Positions 5,615 through 13,949 of a DNA stretch of 64,000 nt are shown here, piece by piece. The notes under the pieces were generated by a model. The model saw only the letters and a program-made list of their open reading frames with translations. It did not search any database and was not told where the DNA came from. The DNA comes from Natronorubrum sediminis. Its GTDB lineage: Archaea; Halobacteriota; Halobacteria; Halobacteriales; Natrialbaceae. Position 1 is the stretch's first letter, and every line of letters starts with the position of its first letter. The stretch lies in NCBI RefSeq assembly GCF_900108095.1, contig NZ_FNWL01000001.1:930001-994000 (forward strand). The letters run 5' to 3'. Position numbers and translations under genes: made by a program.

Positions 5615-6075
5615 GAGTACTCTCCGTGGTGTGGCAATCGAACGGCCGAGAGCCAGAACCGCTCGAATGCGTGGACGGTCTCGATGAACTCGTCCGGATC
5701 GACCGGTTTCGTCAGGTACGCGTTCGCGTGCAGTTCGTACGATCTGAGCACGTCCGCTTCGGCTCGAGAACTCGTCAAGACGATGACTGGAATCGAGCGG
5801 AGATCCGGATCGGATTTGAGTTCCTGGAGGACCGCCTCGCCGCTTTTTTGTGGCAAGTTGAGGTCCAACAGGATGAGGTCCGGCTGCGGCGCGTGTTCGT
5901 ACTCGTTTCGCTGGTAACAAAAGTCGAGGGCTTCAGTTCCGTCCGGAACGACGTGTAAGTCGTTCTCGATCTGTGCTTGTTTGAACGCTTCTTCGGTCAG
6001 TCGAACGTCACCCGGGTTGTCCTCGACGAGGAGGATCTGTGCTGACTCGAGAGAAGACTGTCTGCGATTAGTCAT
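5611..6075 (-). CDS. Stand-alone response regulator receiver (Rcp1-like)
   Basis: The 154-residue single-domain receiver has acidic residues ED at 19-20, phospho-acceptor D71 in LILLDLNLPQ, switch Thr in VIVLTSS and Lys in AYLTKPVD. The long LNLPQKSGEAVLQELKSD version is typical of the Rcp1/CheY-like proteins encoded beside phytochrome-like and PAS/GAF kinases. It overlaps the kinase upstream and the receiver-HTH gene downstream by four bases each (ATGA on both sides), indicating translational coupling. It may accept phosphate from the kinase and act as a shuttle or sink. Confidence 0.92.
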   Translation of the reverse strand: MTNRRQSSLESAQILLVEDNPGDVRLTEEAFKQAQIENDLHVVPDGTEALDFCYQRNEYEHAPQPDLILLDLNLPQKSGEAVLQELKSDPDLRSIPVIVLTSSRAEADVLRSYELHANAYLTKPVDPDEFIETVHAFERFWLSAVRLPHHGEYS

Positions 6076-8951
6076 TTGCTTACAGGTGTAGTCGTGGATG
6101 CAGTTTCCGGCGGTGCTGGCAACGTCACGGTAAACCTCGCCCCCTCACCAGGCTCCGAGACGACGCGAATGTCGCCATCGTGTCGTTCGACGATGCGCTG
6201 ACAGAGTGCGAGTCCGATTCCAGTTCCGGCGTACTCGTCGACGCTGTGTAATCGATCGAACACCTGAAAGATGCGATCTGCGTTGTCCGGATCGATCCCA
6301 ATCCCGTGGTCTCGAACTGAAATATGCCACTCGTGACCGTCTCTTTCGGCGAACACAGCTATCTGTGGTGATTGCTCACCGGAGTACGTGAGTGCATTAT
6401 CGAGCAAGTTTTGAAACACTTGCCGAAGCTGTCCCGGATCGCCATATACCGACGGGAGTGACTCGATGGTAATAGCAGCCCCGGTTTCCTCGATTCGAAC
6501 CTCGAGATCGGTCACTACGTCCTCGAGGATGACCTCACAGTCGACGACCTCGAACGGATTTCCTTGCGTGTCGACTCGCGAATACGCGAGCAGCCCGTCG
6601 ATCATCTCTTGCATCCGCGAGGCCCCATCGACCGCGTACTCGATGAACTCGTCTGCGTCCTCGTCCAGTTCCTCGGCGTAGCGATGCTCGAGGAGCGTCA
6701 GGTAACTCGTGACCATCCGCAACGGCTCCTGTAGGTCGTGAGAGGCGGCGTAGGCGAACTGCTCGAGGCGTTCGTTCGACGACTCGAGTTCGTCTACGAG
6801 CTCCTCGCGCCGGCGTTCGTCTGCTCGTCGATCGGAGATGTCGCGCCCGACGCCGGTCAACACCGGCTCTCCGGAAGGGTCCTCGAGCGTACTCGCGATG
6901 AACTCGTAGGGGATCGTCTCACCGGATTTCGTCACGAGGTTTGTCTCGGCCCGCGCGTACCCGGTCTCGAACGCCGTTCCGATCACTTCGATCATCTGCT
7001 CGTGATCATCCTGGTCGAAGACGTCCATCGGCGTCATCGAGGCGATCTCCTCGTCCGTGTACCCCGTTACGTGACACAGCGTCTCGTTCCAGCGTTGGAA
7101 CGACCCGTCCTCGTCGACAACGTAAAAGACGTCGTCGATCGCGTCCAGAATGTCGTCGGTATACGCTTTGAATCGCTCGAGGTGGGCCTCGCGCTCGCGG
7201 AGTTTTTCCTCTTGTTCCTTGCGGGCGGTGACGTCCTGGACCATCACCATGCCGGCGAACACCGTTCCGTCGTCGTCTTCGACCGGGAGCGCGTACGCAA
7301 GCCACACTCGACCGTGAAGGTGGTACTCGAACCGTCGACGCTCACCCGAGAGCACGGCCCTGAAGTTCGACTCGAACGCCTCGCGCGTCTCACCCTCGTA
7401 TCGCTCCTCGACCGTCTGTCCGACAAGCGTCTCGATCGACACGTCGAGATCCTCGAGTACCCCGCCTCCGGCGAGCGTGTATCGGAGGTCGTCGTCGAAC
7501 AGTGCGACCATTCCGTTGGGGAAGTGTTCGATCAACGTTCGGTAGCGCTGTTCGCTCACCTCGAGTTCTCGTTTTCGTTGCTGGCGCTCGAGTTCGTAGC
7601 TCAGCCACTGCGTGAGCAACTCGACGAAGCCCCGCTCGGCGGGCGTAAACGCGACCGATCGAGGGTCTTCGTCGGCAAAGCACAGCGTTCCGAACAGGTC
7701 GTCGTCGACGTGGATCCTGCTGCCGAGGTAGCTATCGAAGTCCCACCTGTCGTAGGCGCGGTCGTCGGTCCACCCCTGTACGGGTGCGTTCGTGAGCACG
7801 AGCAACTCGTCGGAGTCGACCGTCTTTCGACAGTACGTTTCAGAGAGCTCCGTCACCGTCCCCGGCCGCAATCGCTCGTCGTCCCCGCTCGAGTGGACGA
7901 CCTCGAATCGATCGTTCTGTGGTTCGATATCGGCCATGAACCCGACCTCGAGACCGAGTCGTTCGCGGCCGATGTCGAGGAGTTCCTGAACCTTCTCCTC
8001 GAAGGTCCGCTCTCGATCCGCCGTGATCGCGTACAGTTGCTGTAACGTCTGGTTGGTCCGTTGGAGTTCCCGTTCCGTCTGCTTCCGGCTGGTAATATCT
8101 CGGAAGTAGATCGACAGTCCCGTCTCGGAGGGATACACGTTGACCTCGAACCAGGTCTCGAGTGGCGGGTAGTATTCTTCGAACGCCGTCGACTCCTGTG
8201 TCTCCATCGCCCGCCGGTACTCCTGGCCGAACGTCGAATCGATGGTCTCCGGAAACGCCTCCCAAAAATTCGTCCCGTGCAAATCTGCGTCCTCACAGTC
8301 GAGAAGTTCTCGAGCCCGGTCGTTGGCGTACGTGAACTGCCACTCCGTATCGAGACCGACGACCGCATCCGAGATCCGATCGACCGTCGTCTCGAGTTCC
8401 GTCTCGAGACGCTGGTGTTGTCGACGGTTCTGGACCGCCGACGCCAGCAGAGACGCGACGTCTTCGAGAAAGGCAACGTCGTGGTCGGCGAACTCCCGGT
8501 GTTCCGCCGTATACACGACGAACACACCCCACGGACCGCCATCAGATTCGATCGAGACGCCGACCCCACCGACGGCGTCGTGGGCGACGCTGAGCGACGA
8601 CTGCATTACGGTGTCGGCAGCATCGATATCGTCGACGATGACCGCCATATCGGTCTCGAGGGCGGTTCCAACAACCGTATCCGAGTCGAGGGGACCAACC
8701 TCCGTTCCGACGACACCGTTTCGCCACCCCTCGTCCGCTCTCATCACCATCGTTTCGCCCCCGTTTCGTGACTCCAGAACGCCACAATACGCGACGTCGA
8801 GGATGTCTCGAGTGGCACTGGTCGCCGCCGCCAATAGCGACTCGAGTTCGGTCGACTCGAGCGCGAGTTGACTCAGTTCTGCGACCACCTCCTGCTGTCG
8901 AATTCGAGATCGAAGTTGCCCTGGTGGCGGGTTGGACGCTGCCATACTCAA
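6072..8951 (-). CDS. Multi-sensor PAS/GAF histidine kinase
   Basis: The 959-residue cytoplasmic kinase has no membrane segment. Domains in order: GAF about 45-190, PAS about 200-295 ending DITSRKQTE, GAF about 305-460, PAS about 470-590 ending DVTARKEQE, PAS about 605-720 ending DISDRRADE. Then comes HisKA with phospho-acceptor H738 in AASHDLQEPLRMV, and a HATPase with N box NLLDNALTYS, G1 DHGIGI and G2 GTGIGLAL. The HDLQEPL box places it with phytochrome-like kinases. It starts a three-gene operon with two receivers. A TATA-like element lies about 25-33 bases upstream of the start. Its catalytic end is very like that of the kinase at 49537-51909. Confidence 0.93.
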   Translation of the reverse strand: MSMAASNPPPGQLRSRIRQQEVVAELSQLALESTELESLLAAATSATRDILDVAYCGVLESRNGGETMVMRADEGWRNGVVGTEVGPLDSDTVVGTALETDMAVIVDDIDAADTVMQSSLSVAHDAVGGVGVSIESDGGPWGVFVVYTAEHREFADHDVAFLEDVASLLASAVQNRRQHQRLETELETTVDRISDAVVGLDTEWQFTYANDRARELLDCEDADLHGTNFWEAFPETIDSTFGQEYRRAMETQESTAFEEYYPPLETWFEVNVYPSETGLSIYFRDITSRKQTERELQRTNQTLQQLYAITADRERTFEEKVQELLDIGRERLGLEVGFMADIEPQNDRFEVVHSSGDDERLRPGTVTELSETYCRKTVDSDELLVLTNAPVQGWTDDRAYDRWDFDSYLGSRIHVDDDLFGTLCFADEDPRSVAFTPAERGFVELLTQWLSYELERQQRKRELEVSEQRYRTLIEHFPNGMVALFDDDLRYTLAGGGVLEDLDVSIETLVGQTVEERYEGETREAFESNFRAVLSGERRRFEYHLHGRVWLAYALPVEDDDGTVFAGMVMVQDVTARKEQEEKLREREAHLERFKAYTDDILDAIDDVFYVVDEDGSFQRWNETLCHVTGYTDEEIASMTPMDVFDQDDHEQMIEVIGTAFETGYARAETNLVTKSGETIPYEFIASTLEDPSGEPVLTGVGRDISDRRADERRREELVDELESSNERLEQFAYAASHDLQEPLRMVTSYLTLLEHRYAEELDEDADEFIEYAVDGASRMQEMIDGLLAYSRVDTQGNPFEVVDCEVILEDVVTDLEVRIEETGAAITIESLPSVYGDPGQLRQVFQNLLDNALTYSGEQSPQIAVFAERDGHEWHISVRDHGIGIDPDNADRIFQVFDRLHSVDEYAGTGIGLALCQRIVERHDGDIRVVSEPGEGARFTVTLPAPPETASTTTPVSK

Positions 8952-9067: not shown

Positions 9068-11395
9068 CTAATCGAGAAATGAGGTGAGCCGCGTCACTGC
9101 CACGCCAGAAACGTGCCGACGGATCCGCGTTCGATCCCACCCGAGCGGTGACAACACACTCTCACAGGCCTCGACAAGTTTGCCTTCGTAGAACTCGAGA
9201 TCGTACTCGTCGATCGATTCGACCGGAATGCGAACGCGGTCTGCAGTTCGCGCCTCGTCGTCGACCACGACGTATCGGACCGACTGACCGGGGTGGCGCT
9301 CGATTCCGTGACGCTCGTATCGCTCGAGCGCCCCCACGGTTCGGGTCCGCTGACGATACGCCGAGCGCGGCTTCGAGACGCGGGTCGTGATCTCGAGGTC
9401 GCCGGGGTCGACGTTGCCGCGTCGAAGCATCCCTAATCGACGGGAGAGCACGTCACAAACGGCAACTGGGTCCCGCTCGCGGTCGAGCGCCTCGACGAAC
9501 GCGCGTTGGCTCTCGGCGACGAACGCCGGCGTGCTCCGCTGGCGCACCTCGATGCCGCGAAACTTGTACGACCCCGACTCGCGCTTGCCGAAGTATCGGG
9601 TGAGCGCGCCCGCCGTCGCGGACGAGTGTGGCGTCTCGGCGTCGCCCGCCGCCTCACCCTGATCCGTCGCCGCCTCTCGGCCGCGAACCGACTCGCGCAA
9701 CGGGACGAAACAGACCCACTCGTAGCTGCCGTCGTGTTCGAGCGGAATGCCGACCGCGGCCGACACGTCGGCGATCACCGACTCGAGTGGCTCCGGGTCG
9801 ACACCCTCTCGCGGCGTCACCCAGAGGCTATCGACGATGCCGTGAACGATCCGCCAGCCGCCGTCCTCGAGTCGACGCTTGGCCGTCAAGGCGATGTCGC
9901 GAGCGTAGGCGTTGATAGCCTCGTGACACTCGATTCGGCCGTACTTGGCGTTTCGATAGCCCTGATAGCCAAAACAGGAGACGAGCACCCACTTGATCGC
10001 ACCCGATTCAGCTCGAAGGCGACTCGCCGTCGCCTCCGGCGGGTCGTCCGCGAGTCGGCGTTTTCTGTCGGCTCGATCCGCGAGCAAGGGCTCGAGAACC
10101 GACGGGAGAAACGGCGTCTCGGCCGGGCCGCCCGAACAGAGTTCGTACTCGAGATCAGGAACGCGGCGAGTGTCCGCCGCAGTGTCGGCTGACTCGTGGG
10201 CGCAGCCGACCGTTTCCGGACTGATGCCGTACTCGCAGATGATCCGAGGGTACAGCGAGGCGAAGTCGATCTCGTGAACGCGCTCGTGAAAGCCCACGTC
10301 GGGGGCGAACGTGAACCCGCTCCGATCGGCCGCGTGGAGCGTCCGAACGTCGGAAAATCGCTCCGGTTCCCACTTGTTCTGTGGCGCGAGGACGTCCCAC
10401 TCGCGACGGGCGAGTCGAATCTGTCTCGAGGTCAACAGCGTCCCGATGCTCCCCCAGGCGGTCTCCTGGAGCGGGCGGCCCGTTCGCTCGACCATGTACT
10501 CGAGGCCGGCCAGCCCCGACTGCTGCCAGAGGAAGCTGTTCGAGGTGTCGACGATCGCCCGACCCGGCACTCGATAGCGCGCGGGCGAGTGACCAACCCG
10601 CCCGTAGCTCTCGTACGTGTTCGATCCAGCGAGTCTCGTCCACCCCGGCAGCCGCCCCAGCGCGAACGACTCGAGGCCGACCTCGGACGCCCGCCGGGAG
10701 AGCAACGGCACCAACTCGGCGTGGCTGACGACGAGCACGTCCGGGTCGTCACGCCCGAGTCGCCACTGGAGGGTCTCGAGCGTCGCTCGCGCGTCGTCTG
10801 GCCCACTACCGACCGTTCGCGCACCGTCTAACCCACGACCAGCCGCTCGCGCACCGTCTGCGTCACGATCACGATCGGGCCTCCGCTCATCCTCGAGGAC
10901 GGACTCACCCTCAAGTCGAATCGCGGTCACGTCGCCGTCGGCCAGCGCGGTGTCGTCGATTTCGATGTGCAGGGCACGCAGTTCCCGGGTCGGCGTCGGA
11001 TCGATCCCCCGGTCGAGACAGTATCGGAAACCGGGCTCGAGGTCCACGTCGTACAGCCGGAACGTGCCCGGCGCGTGCGTCTCGCGCTCGTGAACGCCCC
11101 GAATCTCGCGGGCGAGTTGGCGAACGTCATCGACACGCTCGAGGTCGACGCGCAACAGCCGGCTTCGCTCGCCGACGTGGGCCTCGTGGAGGTCCCTCGC
11201 CCAGCGTTCGGTTCCTAAATCGTCCACCTTCGGATCCGACTCGAGGCGCGAGCGCAGGTCCACGAGCGCGTCGTCGGGCCCCGAGACGAACACCGACGGC
11301 GCGTACGCCTCGACGAGCGTCGGCTCCGCCCCCGACTCAGTGAGTGACCACTCACGGACCGAACCGTCTGCGAACTCGAACGTGTAGGGGCTCAT
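9068..11395 (-). CDS. polB2: B-family DNA polymerase, PolB2 type
   Basis: The 775-residue polymerase keeps motif A as DFASLYPRII (D377), motif B as KWVLVSCFGYQG (K468) and motif C as HGIVDSLWV (D522). Compared with the usual YGDTDS, the first motif C Asp is Ile, but the second Asp, the metal ligand in B-family structures, is kept. Exonuclease motifs are absent: the DIE position reads LHIEIDD, and the region that should carry N-x-x-x-F-D reads VVSHAELVPLLS. Proofreading is therefore probably lost. Arg/Gly/Ala/Asp-rich repeats (about 170-210) interrupt the N-terminal region. The start overlaps the upstream gene by four bases, and this is the last gene of a three-gene cassette. Crenarchaeal PolB2 has been linked to damage tolerance. 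Family call is strong; activity is inferred. Confidence 0.9.
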   Translation of the reverse strand: MSPYTFEFADGSVREWSLTESGAEPTLVEAYAPSVFVSGPDDALVDLRSRLESDPKVDDLGTERWARDLHEAHVGERSRLLRVDLERVDDVRQLAREIRGVHERETHAPGTFRLYDVDLEPGFRYCLDRGIDPTPTRELRALHIEIDDTALADGDVTAIRLEGESVLEDERRPDRDRDADGARAAGRGLDGARTVGSGPDDARATLETLQWRLGRDDPDVLVVSHAELVPLLSRRASEVGLESFALGRLPGWTRLAGSNTYESYGRVGHSPARYRVPGRAIVDTSNSFLWQQSGLAGLEYMVERTGRPLQETAWGSIGTLLTSRQIRLARREWDVLAPQNKWEPERFSDVRTLHAADRSGFTFAPDVGFHERVHEIDFASLYPRIICEYGISPETVGCAHESADTAADTRRVPDLEYELCSGGPAETPFLPSVLEPLLADRADRKRRLADDPPEATASRLRAESGAIKWVLVSCFGYQGYRNAKYGRIECHEAINAYARDIALTAKRRLEDGGWRIVHGIVDSLWVTPREGVDPEPLESVIADVSAAVGIPLEHDGSYEWVCFVPLRESVRGREAATDQGEAAGDAETPHSSATAGALTRYFGKRESGSYKFRGIEVRQRSTPAFVAESQRAFVEALDRERDPVAVCDVLSRRLGMLRRGNVDPGDLEITTRVSKPRSAYRQRTRTVGALERYERHGIERHPGQSVRYVVVDDEARTADRVRIPVESIDEYDLEFYEGKLVEACESVLSPLGWDRTRIRRHVSGVAVTRLTSFLD

Positions 11396-11799
11396 TCGGG
11401 ACCCTCGCGCGTCGCGTCCGGTTCGTCGTCACGCGTTGCGTCCGGTTCGCCGTCACTCGTTGCGTCCGGTTCGTCGGTCGAACCGGAAATCCGACCCATC
11501 GACCTCGAATCGGGCACCTGTCCGTCCGACTTCGAACCGGAAATCCGCTCCTCCATCTCCTCGAGTTCACCTCGCAACCGGCGGATCTCGACCTCGTGGG
11601 CGAGCAACAGCGAGAGCACGAACGCGCGTTCTGGATCCATCGGGTTCGCGTGGCCCGCCGCGTCGGCGAACGTGCGACCCCGGTCGAACAACCGATCGAA
11701 ATCCAGTTGATACTCCCGGCGTAGCGCCCGTCGCATCGGCCCCCACTCGGACTCGAGCGCCCGCAGCGAGTCGCGGTAGGTCGGGTTCGTTCGCCCCAT
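11392..11799 (-). CDS. Small PolB2-associated protein with repeat tail
   Basis: The ATG at 11799 shares one base with the stop of the preceding gene (TGATG), giving 135 residues. Residues 1-85 look like a compact helical domain: YRDSLRALESEWGPMRRALR, then DRLFDRGRTFADAAGHANPM, then a leucine-rich helix LSLLLAHEVEIRRLRGELEEMEERI that could form a coiled coil. The last 50 residues are low complexity, with two RISGS units and three EPDAT-x-x-x repeats. I do not recognise a named family. Tight overlap on both sides with the RecA-like gene and polB2 argues that it acts with them, perhaps as an adaptor. That role is inference. Confidence 0.75.
   Translation of the reverse strand: MGRTNPTYRDSLRALESEWGPMRRALRREYQLDFDRLFDRGRTFADAAGHANPMDPERAFVLSLLLAHEVEIRRLRGELEEMEERISGSKSDGQVPDSRSMGRISGSTDEPDATSDGEPDATRDDEPDATREGPE
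11414..11476. repeat. 24-base tandem repeat inside coding sequence
   Basis: Units begin at 11414, 11438 and 11462, with the core GCGTCCGGTTCG. They encode the EPDAT repeats at the end of the small PolB2-associated protein. The period is a multiple of three, so copy number can change without frameshift. Confidence 0.8.
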
Positions 11800-12542
11800 C
11801 AGGGCGTCACCTCGAGGAGACCGCGGTCGTGGGCGTCCACGACGGATCGCACCTCGTCGACAGCGCCGTAGCACTCGACCCAGTAGGGAATCGTCGTCTG
11901 CCAGTACTCCTCGTGCCAGTAGCCCGCCGTCTCGTCGATAGTGAGACCCTCGTCCCTACCCGCACCGCCGTTCGCGTCGCTTCCCCGATCCGAATGTGCG
12001 GCCTCGAGTCGAATTCCTTCGCGAGTGTGCACGCACTCGATTCTCGTCGTCGCGTACTTTGCAATCGTATCGGCGTGTTCGTCGACCGCACTCGTCACCA
12101 ATACGGGGCACTCGAGGACCCGCCCCAATTCGGCGAGCGTCTCGAGGGACGCGGCGAGGAGGTCCTCGCGCTCCCACTCGGGCAGATCCGCGTCGTGATA
12201 GAGGCTGGCGACGTTCGGCGAGACGAGCAACTCCGTACTCGCGTCGACACGGTGGGTAACCTTCCGGACCAGCGAGTGGTGCTGGTAGGCCGTGAACGCC
12301 CGTGCGACCTGCAGGGACTCGAGGTGGCGCGGACTCGTGGCACACTCCGAGAGGATTCGTGGCGCGGCCGCGTTTCGCGCGTCGATCCAGTACGCCGTCG
12401 CGTTCGCCTTCCTCCCGACGGTGTCGTGTCCGGTCATTTCCGCCAGCCTCGCACAGGCGAGTCGGTGTCCGATCGTCGATCGCGGCGACGGTACCTCGAG
12501 AAGTACCATCCCGGTTCCAAATTCGAATCCGTGTGTTTGCAT
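11799..12542 (-). CDS. RecA-fold protein lacking Walker A (inactive RadA/RadB-like)
   Basis: The chosen ATG at 12542 gives 247 residues. The open frame extends further upstream but that part is Arg/Ser-rich. The order of segments follows RadB/RadA. GTGMVLLEVPSPRSTIG (9-25) sits where GxxxLLxGPPGSGKT is expected, with the P-loop Lys-Thr missing. YWIDARNAAAPRIL, LQVARAFTAYQHHSLVRKV and TELLVSPNVASLYHD follow, the last lacking the Walker B Asp. Then come a long helix with LETLAELGRVL, the strand CPVLVTSAVD, and TTRIECVHTREGIRLEA as the final RecA strands. ATP hydrolysis is therefore unlikely. It opens the polB2 cassette, so a scaffold or recruiter role similar to bacterial ImuA is plausible. The fold assignment is from motif order, not a search. 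Confidence 0.68.
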   Translation of the reverse strand: MQTHGFEFGTGMVLLEVPSPRSTIGHRLACARLAEMTGHDTVGRKANATAYWIDARNAAAPRILSECATSPRHLESLQVARAFTAYQHHSLVRKVTHRVDASTELLVSPNVASLYHDADLPEWEREDLLAASLETLAELGRVLECPVLVTSAVDEHADTIAKYATTRIECVHTREGIRLEAAHSDRGSDANGGAGRDEGLTIDETAGYWHEEYWQTTIPYWVECYGAVDEVRSVVDAHDRGLLEVTP

Positions 12543-12817
12543 AGGCGATTCCTCGTGGGAGCCCCGCATAAGCATCGGAACACCGTTTCCGAAATTCCGA
12601 AACGACTCGAGCGAGCGATATCGGCCTGCAGCAGGCCGAATGCGACGGGAGAGCGGATACCGAAACGACGTTCCGAAACTTGAATCAGAGGAAAGACAGA
12701 TGACTCGAACTCGCTGAAAGAATGGAGCTTTGCTGAAAGAAGGGGCTCGAGTCGCGTGCGAACGCGCAACCAATAATGTGCGACCTCTTCGAATCGGAAA
12801 ACCCAGCGAACCCGCGG

Positions 12818-13840
12818 TTACTCTCCGTCGACCGCGCCGTCGTCGACGGCCCGGTACGTCCGCCCGCGGCGCTCCCCGACGGCTTCGATCAGGTCGTAGT
12901 GGACCATCTTCGTCAGGTAGTTTCGCAGCGTCCGGTTCGTCTTCGGATCGTCGACTCGACGTTCGTACTCGTCGTACAAATCGCCGGGTTCGATCTCGTC
13001 CGCTTCGGCGACGATATCGTAGAGCACTCGCTGATGTTCGATCAACCCCTCGACGGTCTTGCGCCGGATCGCCGTCCGCGCGTCCGGAATCGCCGCCTCG
13101 AGAACAGGGTCGGTCACGCGCTCGTACCCTTGCTGGGACGCTCGTCTGGCCGCCGAGCGAAGGATGCCGATTCCCACGCGGGCGTCCCCGGACGCGGCGT
13201 CGGCGATGGTCCGTCGCTGGGCATCCGTGATGACACCCGGCTCGAGGGCGTTGTCGGCTCGCTCGGCGAGGATCGCGGCGAGTTCGTCAGTTCCGTAGCG
13301 ATCGAATCTGACCCGCGTTCCCGCCCGCAGTCGCGAGCGCACCCGGTCGTCGAAACTCGCGAACAACTCCTCCTCGCGGTTGGCGATCAGGACGAGCGAG
13401 ACGTGTCCCAGCCGGTGGAGGTCGTAGAGGGCGGCCGTTTCCTCGAGTTGGTCGACTTCGTCTAAGATGACGACGATCGGGCTGTCGTTCGTCTCCCGTA
13501 GTCGCCCGAACAGTTCGTCTTTCGGCGTCGATCGGTGGATGTCGACCGTTCGTCCGACCGACTCGAGGATGCTGTAGAGCACTCGAAACCGGGTGTACTC
13601 CTGCCAGCAGTTGACGTAGGCGACCGAAACCGCGGGTTCCTGTTCGCACAGCTGTGCGAGGGTGTATCGAGCGATGCAGGTCTTTCCGACGCCCGTCGGA
13701 CCGAAGCAAAACGCCGGATCTGCTCGCTGCCCGTCCAGTATCGGCTCAAGGGACTCCGAGAGGAGGTTCACCTCGTCGTGGCGATGAACCACCTCGCTGG
13801 GGACGAAATCCTCGCGCAGGACGCGGTCGTCGACGATCAC
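12818..13840 (-). CDS. Orc1/Cdc6-type replication initiator paralogue
   Basis: The 340-residue AAA+ protein has Walker A GPTGVGKT (47-54), Walker B VVILDEVDQL (ILDEVD at 125-130), sensor-1 region LVLIANRE, then helices with DARVGIGILRSAARRA and a C-terminal winged-helix segment (TNRTLRNYLTKMVHYDLIEAV). The order matches archaeal Orc1/Cdc6 proteins, which bind origin recognition boxes and load MCM. Haloarchaea carry many paralogues, often plasmid-like or accessory. At 340 residues this one is at the short end of the family. No convincing origin recognition box was found next to it, so it may be an accessory paralogue rather than a main initiator. Confidence 0.88.
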   Translation of the reverse strand: MIVDDRVLREDFVPSEVVHRHDEVNLLSESLEPILDGQRADPAFCFGPTGVGKTCIARYTLAQLCEQEPAVSVAYVNCWQEYTRFRVLYSILESVGRTVDIHRSTPKDELFGRLRETNDSPIVVILDEVDQLEETAALYDLHRLGHVSLVLIANREEELFASFDDRVRSRLRAGTRVRFDRYGTDELAAILAERADNALEPGVITDAQRRTIADAASGDARVGIGILRSAARRASQQGYERVTDPVLEAAIPDARTAIRRKTVEGLIEHQRVLYDIVAEADEIEPGDLYDEYERRVDDPKTNRTLRNYLTKMVHYDLIEAVGERRGRTYRAVDDGAVDGE

Positions 13841-13949
13841 GATCGCTGATTTGTCGCCAACCTTTGTAAGCGATAGCGTCTCGGTTCCGATACTTCCGAA
13901 ACCGCGGACGCCAACTCGCCGCGCATCGATGGACGCCGGTCTTGGCAGG

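Follow-up and report, generated by a model that had tools for sequence, protein, structure and literature searches.

An iRadA-PPB2-PolB2 mutasome operon of Natronorubrum sediminis and a tandem operator shared with its orc1/cdc6 neighbour: a candidate Orc-linked damage circuit

The archaeal polB2 operon, including its arORC2 neighbour, was described by Makarova et al. (2014; PMC4104785) and Timinskas et al. (2025; PMC11791011), and the complex of its products, iRadA-PPB2(3)-PolB2, was modelled in 2025 (PMC11791011). In S. islandicus, damage-targeted mutagenesis is due to the polymerase, Dpo2, alone (PMC7390963); Halobacterium can do without its polB2 gene, which is linked to orc (PMC1906834), and that of Haloferax can be deleted (PMC7776575). 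In Sulfolobus, the damage response is under the control of Orc1-2, which binds ANTTTC in the promoter of its own gene (PMC9738581), and TTTCACTTTCA is the published ultraviolet-B (UV-B) motif of Halobacterium radA1 and top6B (PMC2556686). Here, we analysed a 64,000-nucleotide stretch of Natronorubrum sediminis (Natrialbaceae; contig NZ_FNWL01000001.1, positions 930,001 to 994,000; hereafter the window), which carries a three-gene cassette on its minus strand. The cassette is very probably the PolB2 mutasome operon of a haloarchaeon, with iRadA, PPB2 and PolB2 in translational coupling, and the operator that it shares with the adjacent orc1/cdc6 gene may form part of an Orc-linked damage circuit. 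The cassette is of a known type; the proposed operator circuit is what looks new.

The genes lie at 12542-11799 (iRadA, 247 residues), 11799-11392 (PPB2, 135 residues) and 11395-9068 (PolB2, 775 residues), coordinates that were verified as exact together with the overlaps. The iRadA stop and PPB2 start share one base (TGATG) and PPB2 and PolB2 share four (ATGA), as the initial annotation had read them, and the three genes are translationally coupled. For iRadA, the start at 12542 was preferred because the in-frame ATGs upstream of it overlap or adjoin a TATA-like element. The order iRadA-PPB2-PolB2 was kept at 64 of 80 haloarchaeal polB2 loci (three of the remainder had no upstream sequence) and PPB2 was present in 94 of 145 genomes of the class, where the loci and genomes behind these and later counts come from related species and are not independent samples. 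In most polB2 loci, the overlap between iRadA stop and PPB2 start was 1 or 14 bases. With the trio thus conserved beside polB2, as the initial annotation had proposed checking, and PPB2 this widespread, the cassette is an ordinary member of the published system.

The 247-residue protein is iRadA, an inactivated RadA-fold protein that lacks both Walker A and the N-terminal helical domain. Single-sequence searches barely detected RadA (NCBIfam TIGR02236, E = 0.043; RadA in the Protein Data Bank (PDB), E = 0.014), and because the Pfam and NCBIfam searches gave nothing significant, a profile of the 60-member family was needed, which matched PDB RadA at E = 8.9e-13. The AlphaFold (AF2) model (predicted local distance difference test (pLDDT) 85, predicted template modelling score (pTM) 0.80) was searched with Foldseek and gave 444 PDB matches at E ≤ 0.001, the best at 2.4e-10; among the matches listed, 50 of 50 were RadA/Rad51/DMC1 family structures. 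At the position of the GxxxxGK[ST] motif of P-loop proteins, the window protein has EVPSPRSTIGHRLA, and the motif was absent from the first 70 residues of all 60 aligned homologues (0/60). The RecA fold without Walker A that had been read from the letters was therefore borne out by profile, alignment and structure prediction.

The 135-residue protein is PPB2, formerly arCOG07300, and already described. The initial annotation was right to call it small and helical, the model consisting mainly of helices with a disordered tail, and wrong to propose a third, undescribed subunit: the N-terminal MGRT is the published hallmark of PPB2 (PMC11791011). The window protein begins MGRTNPTYRD, and in an alignment of 54 homologues M1, T4, L26 and R27 were invariant and G2, R3, N5 and P6 were conserved in at least 90%. 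The MGRT codons (11788-11799, minus strand), which encode the arm published as contacting PolB2, iRadA and DNA, include the base shared with the iRadA stop codon. Pfam and NCBIfam searches with PPB2 gave no significant match, and nor did Foldseek with its model, where the best structural match, a sigma factor, fell below significance. The repeat tail noticed earlier is real, with three EPDAT copies in an acidic stretch (11395-11472, minus strand), yet homologue alignments found the repeats in the closest relatives only, so that the tail is lineage-specific and unconserved.

The 775-residue protein was confirmed as a B2-type polymerase that has lost its proofreading motifs: NCBIfam NF004418 (PolB2-type) matched at E = 5.8e-234, Pfam reported DNA_pol_B only, and the exonuclease motifs Exo I and Exo II showed no conservation among 81 PolB2 homologues, the Exo I region of the window protein reading LHIEID, a near-mimic of DxE. 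Motif A (IDFASLYP; DxxSLYP in the haloarchaeal set) and the motif B Lys were retained. Motif C, whose change the initial annotation had overlooked, reads IVDS in place of DTDS (GIVDS, 9827-9841, minus strand), with Ile replacing the first Asp of DxD; GIVDS occurred in 79 of the 81 homologues. The C-terminal VTRLTSFLD (9071-9097, minus strand) was compared by eye with QxxLxxFF (PMC11791011) and is a candidate clamp motif, resembling a weak PCNA-interacting peptide (PIP); a loose C-terminal pattern of this kind was present in 51 of 81 homologues. Two acidic or glycine-rich insertions (window 9590-9690 and 10790-10890) are lineage-specific, without counterpart in nine other aligned haloarchaeal PolB2 proteins.

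The cassette thus resembles the published PolB2 mutasome in all three subunits, their order, the MGRT arm, the orc/cdc6 neighbour, the lost ATPase and exonuclease and the altered DxD; it differs in the EPDAT tail of PPB2, the acidic PolB2 insertions and a D-T in place of the D-K/R contact motif of the polymerase. The analysis supports the first suggestion of an archaeal unit of translesion type, which pairs PolB2 with an inactivated RadA. The accompanying comparison with bacterial ImuA-ImuB-DnaE2 holds only as an analogy, in that ImuA-ImuB-DnaE2 and Pol V likewise join a RecA-family protein, an error-prone polymerase and a small subunit in a damage-linked system. The bacterial polymerase families and small subunits are different ones, however, and the cassette has no ImuB (Y-family-like), DnaE2 (C-family) or UmuD, its polymerase being B-family and its small protein without Pfam match; in the literature, the structural comparison drawn is with Pol V (UmuD'2C-RecA).

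Variants of the trio were seen elsewhere in haloarchaea. At L040 (3988-5785), L041 (511-4527), L049 (4099-5899) and L133-L149, iRadA-PPB2 is followed directly by a 214-residue stand-alone RNase_H_2 exonuclease (PF13482, E = 2.7e-8) with intact DxE, FDLPFL and HxxxD motifs; PolB2 comes next in L041, and none was detected nearby in L040 and L049. Of 18 matches to this exonuclease at 64% identity or more, 17 adjoin PPB2, and the arrangements iRadA-exonuclease-PPB2-PolB2 (L095) and PolB2-exonuclease (L065) were also found. The exonuclease could be a separate proofreader for a polymerase without its own. Orphan PPB2 genes with an MGKT start were found at L033 (6148-6423), L034 (5016-5321), L036 (4999-5304), L038 (4567-4839) and L039 (7168-7440), with neither iRadA nor PolB2 detected near them; some orphan PPB2 genes have a small open reading frame (ORF) with MRHPQDDLLIV nearby.

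A tandem operator of TTTCGGAA-N-TTTCGGAA type precedes both the mutasome operon and the adjacent orc1/cdc6 paralogue (12818-13840, minus strand), which adjoins the cassette on the same strand, as annotated, and encodes a 340-residue protein whose Walker A (GPTGVGKT) and Walker B (VVILDEVD) motifs are intact. In the mutasome promoter, where upstream-region comparison drew attention to the repeat TTTCGGAATTTCGGAAAC, the operator TTTCGGAATTTCGGAA(AC) occupies 12587-12602, with a TATA-like CTTAT (12568-12572) 14 base pairs (bp) downstream and a second, single TTTCGGAA element farther upstream (12671-12678), all on the minus strand. In the orc promoter, the operator TTTCGGAAGTATCGGAA, noticed as TTTCGGAAGTATCGGAACC, occupies 13885-13901, 44 bp from the start codon and again 14 bp from a TATA-like CTTA (13867-13870), also on the minus strand. 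A footprint of 11 family members showed the repeat and GCTTAT conserved and most of the flanks variable. Across haloarchaea, the operator core consists of two [CT]GGAA units 8-9 bp apart; the distance from operator end to TATA-like box was 14 bp in 39 of 46 sites with a scored box, and in orc promoters the core begins 53-67 bp before the start codon. No earlier report of a TTTCGGAA operator was found in the open-licence literature searched, and the main texts of PMC11791011 and PMC4104785 do not describe this promoter operator.

In the 130 bp before the gene, 38/65 iRadA and 30/42 orc genes carry the operator versus 2/428 other ORFs of the same loci, the strict pattern undercounting, with degenerate repeats visible at some loci scored negative. 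For genome searches, operator and TATA-like box were combined as TCGGAAN2-4CGGAAN14-16TTA, with the reversed pattern as control. The 3.78-Mb genome has exactly two matches to this composite, neither of them outside this cluster, and 41 genomes of the family have 52 (control, 0). Exact 17-mer operator sites in the family numbered 24 (control, 0), of which 13 precede orc and 3 precede iRadA, the remaining sites lying upstream of integrase modules or small ORFs; at the level of the order, exact 17-mers precede six more orc genes and one more iRadA. The same operator, with a TATA-like box, was found at 5 of 6 loci of orphan MGKT PPB2 genes far from any polB2, on other replicons, including the orphan PPB2 of N. 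sediminis itself on contig 3 (L033). Several TCGGAA repeats of the N. sediminis genome were discarded as lying inside coding sequence.

The published UV motif TTTCACTTTCA often occupies the place of the TTTCGGAA operator where the latter is missing, and in other haloarchaeal clades the mutasome operon has TTTCACTTTCAC at the operator position. In our survey, TTTCACTTTCA preceded top6B, RPA, endonuclease IV and radA genes (named by eye from protein starts). It likewise lies upstream of radA in N. sediminis, and radA, which carries this TTTCAC type, was rejected as part of the TTTCGGAA regulon of that genome. The two sites are alike in that the Halobacterium motif (PMC2556686) is also a tandem repeat, of TTTC, upstream of a TATA box and fronts the mutasome operon in several other haloarchaea; the window operon carries the TTTCGGAA type instead, with no TTTCACTTTCA upstream of its TATA-like box.

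The operator lies upstream of the TATA-like box, and its position therefore suits an activator. By analogy with Sulfolobus Orc1-2, we infer that the Orc paralogue would act through the tandem site to activate the mutasome along with its own gene, and the operator is predicted to turn the mutasome on after DNA damage. The window resembles the Orc1-2/DDRE system (PMC9738581) in having an ATPase-intact Orc paralogue linked to a site in its own and damage-gene promoters, and differs from it in that the site is a tandem TTTCGGAA fixed 14 bp from the TATA-like box. We give about even odds to the full proposal drawn from these promoter comparisons: a haloarchaeal damage-response operator not described before, with tandem TTTCGGAA-N-TTTCGGAA repeats 14 bp upstream of a TATA-like box, that would be bound by the adjacent, autoregulated Orc/Cdc6, have as joint targets, besides the PolB2 mutasome, the PPB2 orphans of other replicons and certain integrase modules of mobile elements, and act as an SOS-box analogue that swaps with TTTCACTTTCA between clades. 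Several observations weigh against an Orc-controlled mutasome of the published type. ANTTTC occurs in one of the two window operators, that of iRadA (AATTTC), and is absent from that of orc; at some loci with the operator, no orc gene was found nearby; and a few exact copies of the motif precede unrelated genes, such as a methyltransferase. In the polymerase, the D(K/R) motif before the palm, which contacts PPB2, reads IVDTSN, with Asp retained and K/R replaced, so that the window has D-T where Sulfolobus has D-K/R; haloarchaeal PolB2 is variable at this position (R, E, G, T, A).

A serious competitor, to which we assign a somewhat less than even chance, is that a different regulator, such as a dedicated TFB paralogue or an unknown repressor, binds the operator, with orc as another target that possibly restarts replication after damage. 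The genomes in which the operator lies upstream of iRadA without a nearby orc favour it, as does the UV motif of radA, top6B and vng17, which has no known binder (PMC2556686). On the other side, orc is the most frequent single target, with 13 of the 24 exact family sites, and Orc1-2 has exactly such an autoregulatory role in Sulfolobus (PMC9738581).

That haloarchaeal PolB2 is catalytically dead, and the complex structural, serving for example stalled forks or origin firing, was the view of 2008 and 2014 and is unlikely. Ile replaces the first Asp of motif C in virtually all homologues, the exonuclease is lost, and early papers predicted inactivation (PMC4104785); yet Sulfolobus Dpo2, with the same type of motif C change (IID), is active (PMC11791011) and needed for targeted mutagenesis (PMC7390963). 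The haloarchaeal set keeps motif A and the Lys of motif B, which also speaks against a dead enzyme. It is very unlikely that the TTTCGGAA repeats are origin-recognition boxes (ORBs) of a replication origin beside orc/cdc6 and no transcription operator, a reading for which we counted GGAAAC, which we take to resemble the ORB core. Although predicted origins with ORB repeats lie next to most orc/cdc6 genes of haloarchaea (PMC3528665), the repeats here are direct, not inverted, lack the G-string required by that study, keep a fixed distance to TATA-like box and start codon, and also lie upstream of iRadA at loci where no orc was detected in range (e.g. L055), as well as of PPB2 orphans located on other replicons.

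Further sites were noted during the survey. The operator lies upstream of tyrosine-integrase modules at L163 (1500-2906; C2:225054 of the N. sediminis genome; Pfam Phage_integrase) and, by sequence resemblance, L196, and it precedes a similar small Zn-type ORF at L175; a link of mobile elements to the damage signal is possible. At L164 (1500-1700; C6:35334 of the same genome), an iRadA-like frame interrupted by a stop follows the near-match operator TATCGGAAGTATTGGAA and is apparently the remnant of a second mutasome that has decayed, and at L155 (1498-2112; C1:258130), TTTCGGAAATCGGAAAC lies 59 bp before a 184-residue protein without Pfam match. Directly downstream of the cassette on the same strand, window 6072-8951 encodes a 959-residue protein resembling a multi-PAS/GAF sensor histidine kinase.

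Together with the published model, the proposed Orc-linked mutasome suggests how the parts might work. We infer that the iRadA-PPB2-PolB2 complex forms and is active in N. sediminis: a PPB2 trimer would push one MGRT arm into the PolB2/iRadA cleft, iRadA would dock on PolB2 as RadA subunits do in a filament, without using ATP, and PolB2, lacking proofreading, would carry synthesis from distorted primer ends beyond lesions and introduce mutations in doing so. Binding of the Orc paralogue to the shared tandem operator, activating its own gene and the mutasome, would make translesion synthesis damage-inducible, comparable to Orc1-2 with a different site in Sulfolobus. The cassette supplies one more haloarchaeal case of a known mutasome, whose third subunit, first taken as undescribed, is a described one. 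The operator in common with orc suggests a way in which mutagenic DNA synthesis might be induced in archaea other than Sulfolobus, and the proposed circuit, which comprises a predicted regulator, one 17-bp site and few targets, is testable in tractable haloarchaea.

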